Below are positions 15,378 through 35,305 of a stretch of 64,000 nt of DNA, piece after piece; the first letter of the stretch is position 1; the number at the start of each line of letters is the position of its first letter. Both the position numbers and the translations under genes were made by a program. This stretch comes from Roseateles oligotrophus. Lineage in GTDB: Bacteria > Pseudomonadota > Gammaproteobacteria > Burkholderiales > Burkholderiaceae_C. The DNA lies in assembly GCF_014204525.1 (NCBI RefSeq), contig NZ_JACHLP010000004.1, forward strand, positions 1 to 64,000, in the 5' to 3' direction. The notes under the pieces were generated by a model. It searched no databases. It saw only the letters and a list, made by a program, of their open reading frames with translations, and was not told the origin of the DNA.

Positions 15378-15991
15378 AGTGTGATCCCCTTGGCCTTCAG
15401 CGATTTTGCCAATGAATGGGTGGCACGGGAGCAATGCGTTTTGACGCTGCCTTCCGAACATCCCATGACGGTGGCTGTCTCCGCGACATCCAGCTCCTCC
15501 CAGTAACGCAGCAGAAAGGCTTCGCGTTGACGCTCCGGCAATTCGGCCACTTCCGCCTCGATGGCTTGCAAGATCTGCACCCGCGAAACCTCGTCGGCGG
15601 CGCTGAGGGCGCCGAGCGCGCCTTCCTGGCCTTCCAGCATTTGCAGCAGGTCGAAATCGCTGTCGGGGTCGTTGGACTCGAAGTCCGACATGTTCTGCAT
15701 CACCGCCGTTCTGACCTTTTTGCGGCGGAACCAGTCCATGGTTGCGTTGGACAAGATGCGTTGAAACAACAGCGGCAACTCGGCCGCCGGGCGGTCGAAA
15801 TATTTTTCGGCCAGCTTGATCATGGCGTCCTGGACGATGTCCAGCGCACCGTCGTCATCGCGCACGAGATAGGCGGTGCGCTTGAATGCACGCCGGTCGA
15901 CGCTCTTCAGAAAGTCGTTGAGTTCTTTGTCGGTGGCCAAGGATGAAGCGGGGGAGCCCGGGGCTGGAAATTGGTGCGCGGAGTATCGCAT
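15374..15991 (-). CDS. Sigma-70 family (ECF-like) RNA polymerase sigma factor
   Basis: The protein has about 205 residues. Region 2 runs from about 25 to 90 (RTAYLVRDDDGALDIVQDAM, then the core-binding and -10 helix ending TMDWFRRKKV). Region 4 runs from about 140 to 200 (LPERQREAFLLRYWEELDVAETATVMGCSEGSVKTHCSRA). No region 1 or 3 is present, so it is ECF-like. The start is uncertain: I give the ATG, but a TTG ending at 15940 would begin LATDKEL, which looks like the usual family start. It heads a four-gene coupled operon and diverges from ilvB. Confidence 0.85.
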   Translation of the reverse strand: MRYSAHQFPAPGSPASSLATDKELNDFLKSVDRRAFKRTAYLVRDDDGALDIVQDAMIKLAEKYFDRPAAELPLLFQRILSNATMDWFRRKKVRTAVMQNMSDFESNDPDSDFDLLQMLEGQEGALGALSAADEVSRVQILQAIEAEVAELPERQREAFLLRYWEELDVAETATVMGCSEGSVKTHCSRATHSLAKSLKAKGITL

Positions 15992-16207
15992 TGCGTGGCC
16001 TGTGCGCTGCACGACCCATGCTCGCGGGGGCTGGCTTGTGCAAACTCCGTGCATAATGTTGCTTCGCACAATGAAGTTACTGGTCTCAAGCTGGCTGCCC
16101 GACCCGGGTGCCATGTTTTTTGATTGCGCAGGTTCCGAGTCCACCTCACAAGGGTGCGAGAAGGGACACCGATGGTTTTTCGTTAGAGAAATTCACAAAG
16201 GTTTTAT

Positions 16208-17998
16208 ATGGATTTGCATAGCGCGGAAGTCAAGCGTGCCCCTGCGGCACATTCGCATTCCTCCCAATCTACGTCAACGTCTTCCGAGCTGAACGGCTCC
16301 GAGGCGCTGGTTCGCTGCCTGCAAGCCGAGGGTGTCAAATACCTCTGGGGCTATCCAGGCGGCGCAGTGCTCTACATCTATGACGCACTGTTTAAACAAG
16401 AAACCATCCAGCACGTGCTCGTGCGCCATGAGCAGGCCGCTGTTCATGCGGCCGATGGCTATGCCCGCGCCACCGGCGATGTGGGCGTGGCCCTTGTGAC
16501 CTCGGGCCCTGGGGTGACCAATGCCATCACCGGCATCGCCACCGCCTATATGGATTCCATCCCCATGGTGATCGTGACCGGCCAAGTGCCCACGCCCGCC
16601 ATCGGCCTGGATGCTTTCCAGGAGTGCGACACCGTCGGCATCACCCGTCCCATCGTCAAGCACAACTTCCTGGTCAAGGACGTGCGCGATCTGGCCATGA
16701 CGATGAAGAAGGCCTTTCACATCGCTCGTACCGGCCGCCCCGGCCCGGTGGTGGTGGACATCCCCAAGGATGTCTCCATGGCCAAGCTGCCCGGTTTCAG
16801 CTATCCGCAGCATGTGGAGATGCGCAGTTACAACCCGGTGCGCAAAGGCCATTCGGGCCAGATCCGCAAGGCCGTGCAACTGCTGTTGCAGGCCAAACGC
16901 CCGTACATCTATTCGGGTGGCGGCGTCATCCTGGGCGAGGCCTGTGCCGAACTGCGCGAGCTGAGCGCATTGCTGGGCTATCCCATCACCAACACCTTGA
17001 TGGGCCTGGGCGCTACGCCCGCCAGCGATCCAAAGTTCCTGGGCATGCTGGGCATGCACGGCACTTTTGAAGCCAATATGACCATGCAGAACTGCGATGT
17101 TCTGCTGGCCGTGGGTGCGCGCTTCGATGACCGGGTGATAGGCAACCCGGCGCACTTCGCCTCGGTGGATCGCAAGATCATCCATGTGGACATCGACCCT
17201 TCGTCGATCTCCAAGCGGGTGCGGGTGGACATCCCCATCGTCGGTGACGTCAAGGACGTGCTGCAGGAATTGATCTTCCAGGTCAAGGAAGCGCAGGCCA
17301 AGCCCGATGCTCAGGCCATCAACACCTGGTGGAGTCAGATCAATGAATGGCGCCGCAAGGACTGCCTGGTCTACAAGCCCTCCACCGACGTCATCAAGCC
17401 GCAGATGGTGGTCGAGACCCTGTGCCGCCTGACCCAGGATCGCGACACCTATATCACCTCCGATGTGGGTCAACACCAGATGTGGGCGGCGCAGTACTAC
17501 CGCTTCGAGCAGCCGCGCCGCTGGATCAACTCCGGCGGCCTGGGCACCATGGGTGTGGGCCTGCCCTATGCCATGGGCATCAAGCTGGCCAAGCCGCAGT
17601 CCGATGTGTTCTGCGTGACGGGCGAAGGCTCCATCCAGATGTGTATCCAGGAGCTGTCCACCTGCCAGCAGTACAAGACGCCGGTCAAGATCGTCGCCTT
17701 GAACAACCGCTATCTGGGCATGGTGCGGCAGTGGCAGGAGCTGGACTACGGCGGCCGCTATTCCCATAGCTATATGGAAGCGCTGCCCGACTTCGTCAAG
17801 CTGGCCGAGGCCTACGGCCATGTGGGCCTGCTGGTGACGCGGCCCGAGGATGTGGAGGGCGCTTTGAAAGAGGCCATCCGCCTGAAGGACCGCACGGTCT
17901 TTCTGGACATCCGCACCGATCCGACCGAGAACGTCTGGCCCATGGTCCAGGCGGGCAAGGGCATTTCGGAAATGCGATTGGGGTCCGAAGACCTCTGA
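16208..17998 (+). CDS. ilvB: Acetolactate synthase, large catalytic subunit
   Basis: This 596-residue ThDP enzyme makes 2-acetolactate from two pyruvates, or 2-aceto-2-hydroxybutyrate, the first common step of valine, leucine and isoleucine synthesis. The catalytic Glu lies in RHEQAAVHAADGYARATG and the ThDP motif is GEGSIQMCIQELSTCQQ...NN. A Ser/Thr-rich N-terminal tail of about 30 residues precedes the enzyme core. A weak AAAGG site lies 7 bases before the ATG. ilvH follows after 166 bases and ilvC after that, forming the ilvBHC block. The symbol could equally be ilvI. Confidence 0.95.
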   Translation: MDLHSAEVKRAPAAHSHSSQSTSTSSELNGSEALVRCLQAEGVKYLWGYPGGAVLYIYDALFKQETIQHVLVRHEQAAVHAADGYARATGDVGVALVTSGPGVTNAITGIATAYMDSIPMVIVTGQVPTPAIGLDAFQECDTVGITRPIVKHNFLVKDVRDLAMTMKKAFHIARTGRPGPVVVDIPKDVSMAKLPGFSYPQHVEMRSYNPVRKGHSGQIRKAVQLLLQAKRPYIYSGGGVILGEACAELRELSALLGYPITNTLMGLGATPASDPKFLGMLGMHGTFEANMTMQNCDVLLAVGARFDDRVIGNPAHFASVDRKIIHVDIDPSSISKRVRVDIPIVGDVKDVLQELIFQVKEAQAKPDAQAINTWWSQINEWRRKDCLVYKPSTDVIKPQMVVETLCRLTQDRDTYITSDVGQHQMWAAQYYRFEQPRRWINSGGLGTMGVGLPYAMGIKLAKPQSDVFCVTGEGSIQMCIQELSTCQQYKTPVKIVALNNRYLGMVRQWQELDYGGRYSHSYMEALPDFVKLAEAYGHVGLLVTRPEDVEGALKEAIRLKDRTVFLDIRTDPTENVWPMVQAGKGISEMRLGSEDL

Positions 17999-19774: not shown

Positions 19775-19804
19775 GTGCCTGCCCCTGTTGTATCCTTGCG
19801 CCCC

Positions 19805-20653
19805 ATGATTGATCCCAAAAACAAGCTCCGGGCCGACGGGCCGGAAGAAGATGATGAGGGCGTGCAGGGCCAGCCCCGTCCGCGCCGCAAAGGCATTTAT
19901 GTGCTGCCCAATGCCATCACGCTGGCGGCACTGTTCTCGGGCTTTTACGCCATCGTGATGGCCATGAATGGCCGTTTCGAGGTGGCTTGCATCGCCATCT
20001 TCTGCGCCGCCGTGCTGGACAGCCTGGATGGCCGCGTGGCCCGCATGACCAATGCGCAAAGCGCGTTTGGCGAGCAGATGGACAGCCTCTCCGATATGGT
20101 CAGCTTTGGTGCCGCGCCGGCCCTGATCGTCTATATCTGGGCCTTCAAGGACATGGGCAAGCTGGGCTGGATCCCGTCCTTCGTCTATATCGCGGGCGCG
20201 GCGCTGCGCCTGGCCCGCTTCAACGTCAATATCGGCGTGGTCGACAAGCGCTTCTTCCAGGGCCTGCCCAGCCCGGCGGCGGCGGCCGTGGTCATCGGCA
20301 TGATCTGGGCTTTTGATGATGCCGGCTTCAAGCAGGTGACCCAGCTGCCCTGGGTGGTGTGGACGGCCTTCGGCCTGACCCTGTTCGCCGGCCTGTCCAT
20401 GGTGACCAATGCTCCGTTCTACAGCTTCAAGGTCGTGGGTGCGCGCCGCACCGTGCCCTTTGTCGTGCTGGTCGCGATTGCTCTGGCCATTGTGCTGATC
20501 AGCCAGAACCCGCCGCTGGGCCTGTTCGCCATCTTCTGTGCCTATGGGCTGTCGGGTTATGTCATCTATGCCTGGCGCAAGGCCAAGGGCCGGCCGGTCA
20601 GCATGATTGCCACTTCAACGGATGAGCCCGATGAAAAGGGTTTGCACCATTGA
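19805..20653 (+). CDS. pssA: CDP-diacylglycerol--serine O-phosphatidyltransferase
   Basis: This 282-residue integral membrane enzyme makes phosphatidylserine, the precursor of phosphatidylethanolamine. The CDP-alcohol phosphotransferase motif is complete (DSLDGRVAR, then G...MDSLSD near 82-105). Six to eight membrane segments follow a charged N-terminus. It is the eukaryotic/Bacillus-like type II PssA rather than the E. coli PLD-type. The ATG is 31 bases after the ilvC terminator. The promoter of the following leu leader overlaps its stop codon. Confidence 0.9.
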   Translation: MIDPKNKLRADGPEEDDEGVQGQPRPRRKGIYVLPNAITLAALFSGFYAIVMAMNGRFEVACIAIFCAAVLDSLDGRVARMTNAQSAFGEQMDSLSDMVSFGAAPALIVYIWAFKDMGKLGWIPSFVYIAGAALRLARFNVNIGVVDKRFFQGLPSPAAAAVVIGMIWAFDDAGFKQVTQLPWVVWTAFGLTLFAGLSMVTNAPFYSFKVVGARRTVPFVVLVAIALAIVLISQNPPLGLFAIFCAYGLSGYVIYAWRKAKGRPVSMIATSTDEPDEKGLHH

Positions 20654-20677
20654 GGCCTGGGCCTCACGTGCTATATT
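20650..20677 (+). promoter_or_regulatory. Promoter of the leuA leader
   Basis: A -35 box TTGAGG (20650-20655, overlapping the pssA stop) and a -10 box TATATT (20672-20677) are 16 bases apart. The predicted transcription start falls at about 20684-20685, on the first base of the leader-peptide ATG, so the leader would be leaderless. Confidence 0.65.
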
Positions 20678-20684
20678 GCGTGCC

Positions 20685-20738
20685 ATGAATTTCCTGCGCG
20701 TGCCCGCTCTACTACTAGGATCCCAACGGGTTCCTTGA
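20685..20738 (+). CDS. leuL: leuA leader peptide (attenuation)
   Basis: A 17-codon reading frame encodes MNFLRVPALLLGSQRVP. Codons 9-11 (20709-20717) are three successive CTA, a rare Leu codon in DNA this GC-rich. A small hairpin (GGATCCC / GGGTTCC, 20718-20734) overlaps the region just behind these codons, and an intrinsic terminator follows at 20772. This is the classic layout of leucine attenuation: slow decoding of CTA by scarce Leu-tRNA should alter folding and spare the terminator. The ATG lies 8 bases after a -10 box, with no ribosome site, so translation is probably leaderless. Confidence 0.75.
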   Translation: MNFLRVPALLLGSQRVP

Positions 20739-20771
20739 TCGCGCACGTCCATCCAAACGTTGAGATCTCGT

Positions 20772-20804
20772 CGGCCCGTATGCAAGCAGCAGCGGGCCGT
20801 TTTT
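20772..20804 (+). terminator. Attenuator terminator before leuA
   Basis: Arms CGGCCCG and CGGGCCG (7 bp, 14-base loop) are followed by five T. It sits between the leader peptide and leuA. The upstream segment ACGGG (20726-20730) can pair with CCCGT in the left arm (20775-20779), a possible but short antiterminator. Confidence 0.75.
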
Positions 20805-20856
20805 GTTTCTACCTTTGACCTGTTGCTTGCGAATTCACCTCACCTGGAAACTGACC

Positions 20857-22563
20857 ATGTTGAAGCAAGCACAGACCAAGTACCGCGCCTTCCCCCCCGT
20901 CGCCCTGGCCAATCGGACCTGGCCCGATGTCCAGCTGACTCGCGCGCCGCAATGGCTCAGCACCGATCTGCGCGACGGCAACCAGGCCTTGATCGAACCC
21001 ATGGACCCGCAGCGCAAGCTGCGCATGTTCCAGATGCTGGTGAAGATTGGCTTCAAGGAAATCGAGGTGGGCTTCCCCTCGGCCTCGCAGGCGGACTTTG
21101 ACTTTGTGCGCCTGCTGATCGAGCAAGACCACATCCCCGCCGATGTCAGCATCCAGGTGCTGACCCAGGCCCGCCAGCCCCTGATCGCCCGCACCTTTGA
21201 GTCGCTGCGGGGCGCACGGCGCGTCATCGTCCATCTCTACAACGCCGTCGCGCCGGTGATGCGCCGGGTGGTGCTGGGCCTGGACGAGGACCAGATCGTC
21301 GATCTGGCCGTCACCCACACCCGCATGGTGCGCGAGTTGGCGGCCCAGCAGCCGGCCACCGAGTTCCTGTTCCAGTATTCGCCGGAGATGTTCTCGGGCA
21401 CCGAGCTGGCTTTCTCCAAGCGCGTGGTCGATGCCGTCACCGAGGCCTGGGGAGCTAACGCGCAGCGCAAGTGCATCATCAACCTGCCCGCCACGGTCGA
21501 GCATTCCACCCCGAATATCTTTGCCGATATGGTCGAGTGGATGGACCGGCATCTGGCGCGGCGCGAGGCCATCGTGCTGTCGGTCCATCCGCACAACGAT
21601 CGCGGCACCGGCACGGCGGCGGGGGAGTTCGCCCTGATGGCTGGGGCCGATCGCATCGAGGGCTGCTTGTTCGGCAATGGCGAGCGCACCGGCAATGTGG
21701 ACCTGGTCAATATCGCCCTCAATCTCTACACCCAGGGCGTGGACCCGGAGCTGGATTTCTCCGACATCGACGAGGTGCGCCGCTGCGTCGAGCATTGCAA
21801 TCAGCTGACCGTGCATCCGCGCCACCCCTATGTGGGCGATTTGGTCTACACCTCCTTCTCGGGCTCGCACCAGGATGCGATCAAAAAGGCTTTTGCCGCC
21901 CGCAAGGAGGGCGAGATCTGGGACATGCCCTATCTGCCCATCGACCCCAAGGACCTGGGCCGCAGCTATGACGCGGTGATACGCGTCAACAGTCAGTCGG
22001 GCAAGGGCGGCATTGCCTATCTGCTGGAGGCCGAGTACGGGGTGGAGCTGCCGCGTCGCCTGCAGATCGAGTTCAGCCAGGTCGTGCAGGCGGTGATGGA
22101 CGATGCGGGCAAGGAATTGTCGGCCGCCGACCTGTGGCGCATTTTCGAAGGCGAGTACGGTCTGGCCGAGGCTGAGGCCGCCGCCAGCCTGCAGCAGACC
22201 GTGCTGACGGACGCCGCCGCAGGCCAGGTGGCTCTGCGGGCCCAGGCCCTGATCGGCCAGAGCCGCCTGGACCTGCAAGGCCAGGGCAGTGGCCCCATCG
22301 ACGCTTTTGTCGACGGCCTGAACCGCCAGCTGCCCGTCGGCCTGCGGGTGCTGGACTATCACGAGCATGCCATCGGCAGCGGGGCCAATGCGCGGGCCGT
22401 GGCCTATCTGGAGCTGCGCATCGCCGAGAGCCAGACCCTGTTCGGCGTCGGCATCGATGCGAACATCGTCAATGCCTCGCTCAAGGCCATCGTCTCCGGC
22501 CTGAACCGTGCCGCCCGGCAGGGCCGTCTGCCCCAGCGCTCCGAGCCGGTGGCGTCGATCTGA
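20857..22563 (+). CDS. leuA: 2-isopropylmalate synthase, fungal/actinobacterial-like type
   Basis: This 568-residue DRE-TIM enzyme condenses acetyl-CoA with 2-ketoisovalerate, the first leucine-specific step. The metal and catalytic motifs are [15 protein letters not shown] near the N-terminus and [11 protein letters not shown] near 245. The C-terminal LeuA allosteric domain (about 420-568) should bind leucine for feedback control. The longer N-terminus ([17 protein letters not shown]) and the [10 protein letters not shown] variant mark the longer subfamily, distinct from the second leuA downstream. Control is by the attenuator just upstream. Confidence 0.93.
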
Positions 22564-22613
22564 AGCATTAGCCAAGCCAGCCCTCGTCAAGATTTCAAGG
22601 AAAGCCCCTCCCC

Positions 22614-24155
22614 ATGAGCCAGCAACTGATTATTTTCGACACCACCTTGCGCGACGGCGAACAAAGCCCCGGCGCCTCCATGACCAAGGACGAGAAGCTG
22701 CGCATCGCGCGCCAGCTGGAGCGGCTCAAGGTCGATGTGATCGAGGCCGGCTTTGCGGCCTCCAGCAATGGCGACTTCGAGGCGGTCAAAGCGATTGCCG
22801 ATGCGATCCGCGACAGCACCGTCTGCTCGCTGGCGCGCGCCAACGACCGCGATATCGCCCGCGCCGCCGAGGCCTTGAAGGGCGCGGCCCGTTCGCGCAT
22901 CCACACCTTCATCGCCACCAGCGAGCTGCATATGGAGAAGAAGCTGCGCATGACGCGCGAGCAGGTGCTGGAGCAGGCCATCCAGGCCGTGCGCTTCGCC
23001 CGCAATCTGAGCGATGACATCGAGTTCTCGCCCGAGGATGGCTATCGCTCCGACCCCGAGTTCCTGGCTCGGGTGGTGGAGGCGGTGATCAAGGAAGGTG
23101 CGCGCACCATCAACATCCCCGACACCGTGGGCTATGCCATTCCCGAGCTTTACGGCAACTTCATCAAGAGCTTGCGCGAGCGCGTGCCCAATTCCGACCA
23201 GGCCATCTGGTCGGTGCACTGCCACAACGATCTGGGCATGGCCGTGGCCAACTCCCTGGCCGGGGTGCAGATCGGCGGTGCGCGCCAGGTCGAGTGCACC
23301 ATCAACGGCCTGGGCGAGCGGGCCGGCAACTGCTCGCTGGAAGAGGTGGTGATGGCGATCAAGACGCGCCGCGACTACTTCGGCCTGGACATCAATATCG
23401 ACGCCAAGCAGATCGTCGCCGCCTCCAAGCTGGTGTCACAGACCACCGGCTTCGTGATCCAGCCCAATAAGGCCGTGGTGGGGGCTAACGCCTTCGCCCA
23501 TGCCTCCGGCATCCATCAGGACGGCGTGCTGAAGGCGCGCGACACCTACGAGATCATGCGCGCCGAAGACGTGGGCTGGAGCGCCAACAAGATCGTGCTG
23601 GGCAAGCTGAGCGGCCGCAATGCCTTCAAGCAGCGCCTGCAAGAGCTGGGCATCACGCTGGAATCCGAGGCCGAGGTCAACGCCGCCTTCGTCCGCTTCA
23701 AGGATCTGGCTGACCGCAAGAACGAGATCTTTGACGAAGACATCATCGCCCTGGTGATGGACGAGTCCGTCACCGCCGAGCATGAGCATTTCCGCCTGGT
23801 GGCCCTGGCCCAGCGCTCCGAAATGGGCGAGCGTCCGCAGGCCCATGTGGTGTTTGCCGCCGGTGAGGTGGAGCACAGCACGCATAGCGAGGGCAATGGC
23901 CCGGTGGACGCGGTGCTGCGGGCGATCGAGTCGGCCGCCCAAAGTGGCGCCGAGATGCTGCTCTATTCGGTCAATGCCATCACCAGCGGCAGCACAGAAT
24001 CGCAGGGCGAAGTGACGGTTCGCCTGCAGCATGCGGGGCGTGTGGTCAATGGCGTGGGGGCCGATCCCGACATCGTCGTGGCCTCGGCCAAGGCTTATCT
24101 GAGCGCGCTCAACAAGCTGCATAGCAAGACCGAGCGAGTCGCGGCCCAGGGTTGA
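22614..24155 (+). CDS. leuA: 2-isopropylmalate synthase, classical bacterial type
   Basis: This 513-residue enzyme catalyses the same reaction as the gene before it but belongs to the shorter bacterial subfamily. It has [14 protein letters not shown] at the N-terminus, [13 protein letters not shown] near 202, and a C-terminal allosteric domain with [14 protein letters not shown]. An AAGGAAAG site lies before the ATG, 50 bases after the first leuA, so both may be on one attenuated transcript. Two leuA types in tandem suggest different leucine sensitivity or a partly divergent substrate, for example a citramalate synthase-like role for one copy. The sequence does not decide this. Confidence 0.92.
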
Positions 24156-35218: not shown

Positions 35219-35305
35219 GCGCGGGTGGCGAAATTGGTAGACGCACCAGGTTTAGGTCCTGACGCCTTCACCGGCGTGCCGGTTCGAGTCCGGCCCCGCG
35301 CACCA
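35219..35305 (+). tRNA. leuX: tRNA-Leu, anticodon UAG
   Basis: This 87-base type II tRNA has acceptor arms GCGCGGG / CCCGCGC with encoded CCA, D-loop AAATTGGTAGAC, anticodon loop TTTAGGT (TAG), a long variable arm, and T-loop GGTTCGAGTCC. It decodes CUA (and other CUN), so it should be the tRNA that reads the three CTA codons of the leuA leader. It lies 23 bases before tig and is probably on the same transcript. The symbol is nominal. Confidence 0.95.

Follow-up and report, generated by a model that had tools for sequence, protein, structure and literature searches.

A probable leucine attenuator with a leaderless-type leader peptide upstream of leuA in Roseateles oligotrophus and its relatives

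The first of two leuA genes in the window (the whole stretch of DNA analysed, 64,000 nt of Roseateles oligotrophus) is preceded by a short open reading frame with three consecutive leucine codons, and the start codon of this frame lies directly behind a promoter-like −10 box, with no space for a ribosome-binding site. The locus raises the question of whether leuA is controlled by attenuation and, if so, whether translation of the leader peptide begins on a leaderless transcript.

In the ORF listing, the + strand of the window carries the genes in the order ilvB-ilvH-ilvC-pssA-leuA-leuA. The names of ilvB, pssA and both leuA genes come from NCBIfam models, while ilvH and ilvC were assigned from their translations. 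The genes of interest are as follows.

19775–20653, + strand: pssA, CDP-diacylglycerol-serine O-phosphatidyltransferase, the upstream gene (ORF list; NCBIfam TIGR00473)
20857–22563, + strand: leuA, yeast-type 2-isopropylmalate synthase (NCBIfam TIGR00970 over cut-off)
22614–24155, + strand: second leuA, in tandem, bacterial type (PRK00915 group; NCBIfam NF002087 and TIGR00973 over cut-off)
35219–35305, + strand: tRNA-Leu(UAG), which reads CTA (window scan; context only)

The tandem leuA pair (20857–24155), one of yeast and one of bacterial type, lies behind one leader; some family members (among L166–L191) place a similar leader before the second-type leuA instead. No leader of the scanned type was found before ilvB (15900–16300). 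The tRNA-Leu(UAG) gene that the preliminary description placed in the window is present, and its position, 14 kb away, is no proof of anything.

The leader region between pssA and leuA begins with the following features.

20650–20655, + strand: −35-like hexamer TTGAGG, weak and not conserved in relatives (promoter scan; promoter logo)
20669–20677, + strand: extended −10, TGCTATATT (sequence; relatives; promoter logo)
20685–20738, + strand: leaderless-type leader ORF of 17 codons, MNFLRVPALLLGSQRVP (read directly; layout at 107 of 110 loci)
20709–20717, + strand: putative regulatory codons CTA CTA CTA (sequence; genome count; codon usage)

The 17-codon peptide with CTA-CTA-CTA that had been described before leuA is read directly from the DNA (ATG AAT TTC CTG CGC GTG CCC GCT CTA CTA CTA GGA TCC CAA CGG GTT CCT TGA), giving a short ORF with a run of end-product codons ahead of a biosynthetic gene. 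It is the sole ORF of 8–45 codons in the window (64 kb, both strands) with a −10 scoring at least 5 placed 5–10 nt upstream. The run itself is unlikely to have arisen by chance, as was first argued from codon rarity: CTACTACTA occurs seven times in the 5.34-Mb genome, against 101 occurrences of the reversed control, and CTA is absent from the 206 Leu codons of six window genes and occurs once among 1217 in 25 leuA genes (25 of the 80 named relatives). At the other six CTACTACTA sites the longest open frame reads TAC TAC TAC or TAC TAC TAT (Tyr), so the leader holds the only Leu CTA triplet of the genome, if the longest open frame at each site is taken as the gene.

Relatives were the best 80 of 583 confirmed named leuA loci together with the 30 best loci in 200 genomes belonging to the same GTDB family, with some duplicates; the closest among the best 80 named loci was Paucibacter sp. 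KBW04 (93% identity). The leader layout was found at 107 of these 110 close leuA loci (95 distinct upstream sequences), each time as an ATG ORF of 16–25 codons with two to five consecutive Leu codons. Shuffles of the 107 regions gave a mean of 0.6 and the opposite strand gave none. CTA accounts for 207 of the 328 codons in the Leu runs of related leaders. Among the three loci lacking a leader, L018 has 3 nt of upstream DNA, and L100 and L111 have no such ORF by the rule used.

A further 74 leuA upstream regions from the family were scanned by a strict rule, which 60 passed (shuffles 0.1). The 14 misses consist of nine divergent leuA copies (55–62% identity), two closer copies (L118, in which the ORF is present but has a poor −10, and L140) and three second-type leuA genes (L175, L183 and L190). 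Four divergent copies (L157, L161, L162 and L163; 57–59% identity) have a different leaderless-type Leu leader, reading ..LVLGRGL or ..LVPGRGL.., without the GGCCC/GGGCC hairpin described below. In two genomes (G018 and G120) the divergent leuA copy lies far from the other leuA.

Outside the family, 66 leuA regions from 45 families of the order were covered (26 from the best-30 list and 40 picked to cover families), and a leader was found in 40 of them, representing 27 of the 45 families. The whole set of 70 gave 41 leaders, against a shuffle mean of 0.9 and a maximum of 4. These leaders use mostly CTG codons, and many of the peptides end in LLLRPAR or alike. The conservation expected across relatives therefore holds for the layout, in 107 of 110 close loci and 27 of 45 other families, but only in the window's own family is the CTA triplet typical. 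Of the best 29 leuA loci from other orders of the class, five look leaderless (L278, L280, L283, L285 and L288); the start motif of leuA was not found in two of the five. Four of these five leaders end in LP or LLP.

A promoter scan over 901 nt returned one promoter-like site, TTGAGG-16-TATATT (shuffle mean 0.2). Its −35-like hexamer is overlapped by the stop codon of pssA (20651–20653), the −10 hexamer TATATT occupies 20672–20677 with a TG extension at 20669–20670, and the ATG follows 7 nt further on. The start of transcription is predicted at or beside the A of the leader ATG, within about 1 nt. In 94 distinct sequences from the window's family, the promoter consists of an extended −10, TGTGCTANATT, and no −35 is conserved. 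T and G stand ahead of the hexamer in 94% and 93% of these sequences, and the TG extension is present in 100 of the 107 related leaders. Of the −35/−10 pair originally proposed to start transcription at the leader ATG, the TG-extended −10 is thus kept in relatives, but the TTGAGG −35 is not.

The other families show a second promoter design, TTGC, 17 nt, TATATT (40 sequences), in which each base of TTGC is found in 85–95% and the ATG lies 6–7 nt past the −10 in 32 of the 40. Within the 107 leaders the spacing between −10 and ATG is 7 nt in 43, 8 nt in 28, 10 nt in 22, 9 nt in 7 and 6 nt in 7, and in the 10-nt group, made up mostly of Variovorax, a 5′ UTR a few nt long is likely. The ATG lies 6–8 nt past the −10 in 78 of 107 leaders of the window's family and in 35 of 40 from other families. 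That two different promoter designs lead to the same place speaks for a transcription start at the ATG.

The best-surviving alternative is an ordinary leadered transcript, with the true promoter further upstream (e.g., read-through from ilvBHC-pssA) and the −10-like box incidental. Since leuA lies downstream of ilvB-ilvH-ilvC-pssA on the same strand, upstream transcripts may enter the leader. The conservation of the −10 is also partly built in: the search rule required A and T at positions 2 and 6, and in later scans T at position 1 as well, so the conservation of those three letters is by construction. The TG extension, the TTGC −35 and the −10/ATG spacing lie outside the conservation forced by the rule, yet they are kept at the frequencies given above, and shuffled regions contain almost no such leaders. 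In the window, GCGTGCC alone stands between the −10 and the ATG, with no Shine-Dalgarno sequence, and a spacing of 6–10 nt in 107 of 107 leaders leaves no space for a ribosome site. A leadered transcript is improbable on this evidence. Both the lack of room for a ribosome site and the leaderless reading put forward in the preliminary description are supported by the comparison, the latter by the layout at 107 of 110 close loci and by its modified form in 27 of 45 other families. The broad pattern TATANT-N5-8-ATG, with 29 genome sites versus 32 for the reversed control, is uninformative alone.

Further elements lie between the Leu run and leuA.

20718–20734, + strand: possible 1:2 pause hairpin within the ORF, GGATCCC-AAC-GGGTTCC, interrupted by a T-T mismatch (fold; comparison)
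20726–20731, + strand: predicted antiterminator arm ACGGGT, in the 3′ end of the ORF, pairing with 20774–20779 (GCCCGT) (pairing counts; alignments)
20772–20808, + strand: intrinsic terminator, CGGCCCG-14 nt-CGGGCCG and U tract (sequence; scan; stem invariant in alignments)
20782–20792, + strand: 5′ strand of a distal helix, the terminator loop, GCAAGCAGCAG (pairing test; alignment)
20820–20830, + strand: 3′ strand of the distal helix, CTGTTGCTTGC, past the terminator and 26 nt before leuA (pairing test; alignment)

The intrinsic terminator that had been noted ahead of leuA is seen as arms CGGCCCG (20772–20778) and CGGGCCG (20793–20799) around a 14-nt loop, followed by TTTTTGTTT, and so stands between the leader and the gene. 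A simple terminator scanner missed this hairpin, as it accepts loops of 3–8 only, and its two matches fall in pssA. The GGCCC..GGGCC hairpin is present in 160 of 169 family leaders (the 107 and 62 of the 74) and missing in nine. An intrinsic-terminator scan was passed by 158 of the 160 hairpin leaders versus 12 of 160 shuffled. The U tract after the hairpin is broken, with T at frequencies of 0.81–1.00 at positions 2–4 after GGGCC, 0.43–0.57 at the next three positions and 0.83–0.97 at positions 8–10. Leaders from outside the family (L199–L251) have an intrinsic-terminator-like site in seven of 40 cases (2 shuffled), and the 20 nt past their stop codons are C-rich and G-poor (46% C, 8% G). A reasonable guess for these is Rho-dependent termination, exposed when the ribosome leaves, as a candidate mechanism.

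Structural conservation was counted in two alignments, A2 (27 Comamonadaceae-type rows) and A3 (16 Roseateles-type rows), taken from the 59 rows of A1. A1 comprises the leader of the window plus 58 of the 79 named leaders; the others were more than 95% alike to a kept one. Among the 16 rows not counted, L048, L055 and L086 lack the distal helix and others have arms that align in another register. The terminator stem is invariant in both A2 and A3.

The terminator loop is complementary, mostly over 8–12 bp, to a stretch that follows the U tract and precedes leuA, where the distal 3′ strand lies about 26 nt (median) before the gene. For 145 distinct hairpin sequences, the pairing score was 22.4 with the sequence's own strand, 18.3 after exchange of strands among species (sd 0.24) and 14.9 for shuffled sequences; the helix is missing in 11 of the 145, whose scores (<16) are near the shuffled mean. 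Each alignment contains 15 cells with double-sided changes, a number reached by none of 500 shuffles. The number of pairs with double-sided changes is a weaker result (equalled or exceeded in 78 and 10 of 500 shuffles), and since 13 of the 15 covarying cells in A2 stem from one pair, there are fewer independent events than cells. Slid controls gave at most 49% pairing versus 97–98% for the distal helix. Because its 3′ strand is transcribed after the terminator, the helix cannot decide the termination of its own transcript, and it could form only in read-through transcripts or in trans. It could be an H-type pseudoknot with the terminator, a replacement of the terminator in read-through mRNA, or a trans pairing with the terminated leader.

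This helix bears on a second alternative, less probable still than an upstream promoter, in which leuA is controlled at translation initiation, as has been proposed for the actinobacterial LEU element, and its ribosome site is gated by the hairpins. The covarying pairing of the terminator loop with RNA shortly before leuA fits such control, and a pseudoknot is also predicted in the LEU element as described in PMC1262725. Three results speak against it: the hairpin is followed by a U tract, if a broken one; the distal strand does not pair specifically with the region before leuA (12.0 own, 12.1 swapped, 149 sequences), and its candidate role in sequestering the leuA ribosome site is not supported by these values; and the Leu run does not pair with the leuA Shine-Dalgarno box, there being no CTACTACTA complement in 20831–20856.

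The predicted antiterminator helix of the leucine attenuator, ACGGGT:GCCCGT, is short (6 bp). CGGG[C/T] is found in 143 of the 160 hairpin leaders; the outer pair is matched too in 115 of these (99 A-U, 8 U-A, 6 G-C and 2 G-U) and mismatched in 28. GGG[C/T] after the Leu run is missing in eight of the 160. The four pairs CGGG:CCCG are invariant in both alignments. In the 27 Comamonadaceae-type sequences 96.3% of pairs hold, with six outer-pair mismatches in 26, and there is no covariation because there is no variation beyond these mismatches. In the 16 Roseateles-type sequences 97.9% hold, the outer pair changing from A-U to U-A in four and being mismatched in two; the covariation score was matched by one of 500 shuffles, and the number of pairs changed on both sides was not unusual (413 of 500).

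The CGGG motif falls in two reading frames, in 46 and 53 of the 99 leaders having CGGG, where it encodes part of P-R-V-R in one clade and of H-G-R-R-R in the other (e.g., CCA CGG GTT and CAC GGG CGG). This use of two frames indicates that the RNA, not the peptide, is conserved. In 71 of the 99 leaders CGGG starts 8–11 nt past the final Leu codon of the run, and in all 99 it lies 9 or 13 nt ahead of the stop codon. The least probable alternative, an arrest peptide whose conserved C-terminus (PRVR or GRRR) senses leucine or itself stalls the ribosome, can point to C-terminal residues strongly kept within clades (GRRR in 48 of 107, PRVR in 32 of 107), but an arrest peptide would keep its residues, and the element shared here is a nucleotide motif complementary to the terminator arm.

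At the position of the possible pause hairpin, 1:2 hairpins score 11.9 versus 9.2 for shuffled sequences (51 distinct sequences), with no convincing covariation, and the RNA of the window folds only moderately better than shuffles (z −1.5).

From the promoter position, the ORF, the codon run, the terminator, the alternative pairing and their conservation, it is very probable that the region is a ribosome-mediated leucine transcription attenuator with a leader peptide made from a leaderless transcript, and the leucine attenuator of the preliminary description stands up to comparison. We infer the transcript start, leaderless initiation, stalling and the leucine response as follows. RNA polymerase would start on the A of the leader ATG or no more than about 1 nt from it and, with no 5′ UTR or ribosome-binding site, the ribosome would load on the 5′ AUG. 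When charged tRNA-Leu(UAG) is scarce, the ribosome would stall at CTA CTA CTA and leave ACGGGT (20726–20731) free to pair with GCCCGT (20774–20779). This pairing would take the 5′ arm of the terminator, and transcription would continue into leuA. With ample leucine, the ribosome at the stop codon would cover ACGGGT, the terminator (20772–20799) would form and leuA would not be transcribed from the leader promoter. The antiterminator and terminator are mutually exclusive, and a ribosome footprint would leave the arm free on a stall at the first Leu codons of the run and mask it at the stop codon. As read from the sequence, this is a classic attenuation switch in compact form.

Leaders of similar type precede other amino acid genes. 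The pattern TGCTANATT-N5-8-ATG has three sites in the genome (control 1): one at the leuA leader, one before a TetR-like regulator and one before a Phe-rich ORF, MISRPVCFFFAYFWFSGPRRLRGDDANTR, that precedes a gene reading as DAHP synthase (aroG); the regulator and the DAHP synthase were identified by eye from sequence. By comparison, TGTTANANT has no genome sites (control 8), and TGATANANT has one (control 7), a 12-codon ORF without an amino-acid run. A leaderless-type Phe leader (FFF) with a terminator-like hairpin lies before the DAHP-synthase-like gene at L295 (own genome, contig 6, near 340189). Leaderless-type Phe leaders were found in 22 of the best 30 aroG relatives in 100 family genomes (L326–L355; shuffles 0.05), and leaderless-type Trp leaders before 22 of 23 full-length trpE genes in 25 family genomes (L356–L378; shuffles 0.05). 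The trpE leaders have closely spaced Trp codons, mostly in ..GAWPWR.., and that of the window's own genome (L362) reads MFITRKHIKGSHDRGAWPWRRPLHDFKR. Elsewhere in the order, leaderless-type Trp leaders were found at only three of the best 30 trpE loci, and these were weak. For Leu, Phe and Trp, the predicted leaderless-type attenuator leaders of the window's family form a class, of which the Leu leader reaches furthest.

A more speculative proposal, and a doubtful one, is that the distal helix adds a second layer of control on top of this family-wide leaderless Leu/Phe/Trp class. The terminated leader RNA, whose loop would be exposed, would pair in trans with the read-through leuA mRNA (or an H-type pseudoknot would form in cis), tuning leuA. 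If this is true, the waste product of attenuation, the terminated leader RNA, would itself tune leuA.

The predicted switch follows the same logic as the enterobacterial leu attenuator. Enterobacterial leuL carries a ribosome site in its 5′ UTR, in contrast to the window leader, which has no space for one. The leu operon attenuator of E. coli and Salmonella is described with a 28-residue leader containing four Leu (PMC6123439); the leuA leader region here differs from it in having its antiterminator arm inside the ORF and an extra covarying helix past the terminator, and in giving no Rfam match even at E 10. Streptomyces lividans is reported to have leaderless leader peptides, leuL1 before leuA and leuL2 before leuS (PMC8079986). 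Like leuL1 (MRFGLLLLSCRGEGL), the window leader is a short Leu-rich ORF before leuA on a leaderless transcript, predicted here; unlike leuL1 of this actinobacterium, which is described as lacking a typical Rho-independent terminator (PMC8079986), it has one. The LEU element of Actinobacteria, as described in PMC1262725, resembles the region studied here in its leader ORF with a Leu run and its predicted pseudoknot before leuA. In that element, however, it is the Shine-Dalgarno box of leuA that the Leu codons pair with, and other elements of an attenuator are described as missing (PMC1262725), whereas the pseudoknot-like helix of the Roseateles leader uses the terminator loop and the base stem differs.

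In Sinorhizobium meliloti, a proteobacterium, the trpL attenuator RNA is described as beginning at the leader ATG, and the terminated RNA (rnTrpL) and the peptide act in trans (PMC7298713). The leuA leader shares such a beginning at the leader ATG, predicted here, but S. meliloti trpL is an alphaproteobacterial Trp system, whereas the window leader is for Leu and trans roles are a possibility. In two Betaproteobacteria, leaderless mRNAs are reported to be enriched among regulators (PMC4603805 on transcription start sites in B. cenocepacia; PMC7563307 on those in C. metallidurans); the terms leuA and leader peptide are absent from the main texts of both papers. Searches of the openly accessible literature yielded no description of a betaproteobacterial leaderless leader peptide. 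None of the 4227 models of Rfam 15 matched the region 20600–20900 up to E 10; at gathering thresholds the whole window gave six tRNAs only, and there was no match in six related leuA/aroG loci or in four aroG/trpE loci, so that the scanned Leu, Phe and Trp leaders match no Rfam family.

In textbook attenuation, the ribosome is bound at the ribosome site of the leader and is coupled to the polymerase just ahead. At the Roseateles leuA leader, the ribosome would instead load on the bare 5′ AUG of the nascent RNA. Across much of a large bacterial order, amino-acid sensing would then regularly begin with leaderless initiation, and these conserved short leaderless ORFs with clear outputs would be a natural test bed for ribosome recruitment during transcription.
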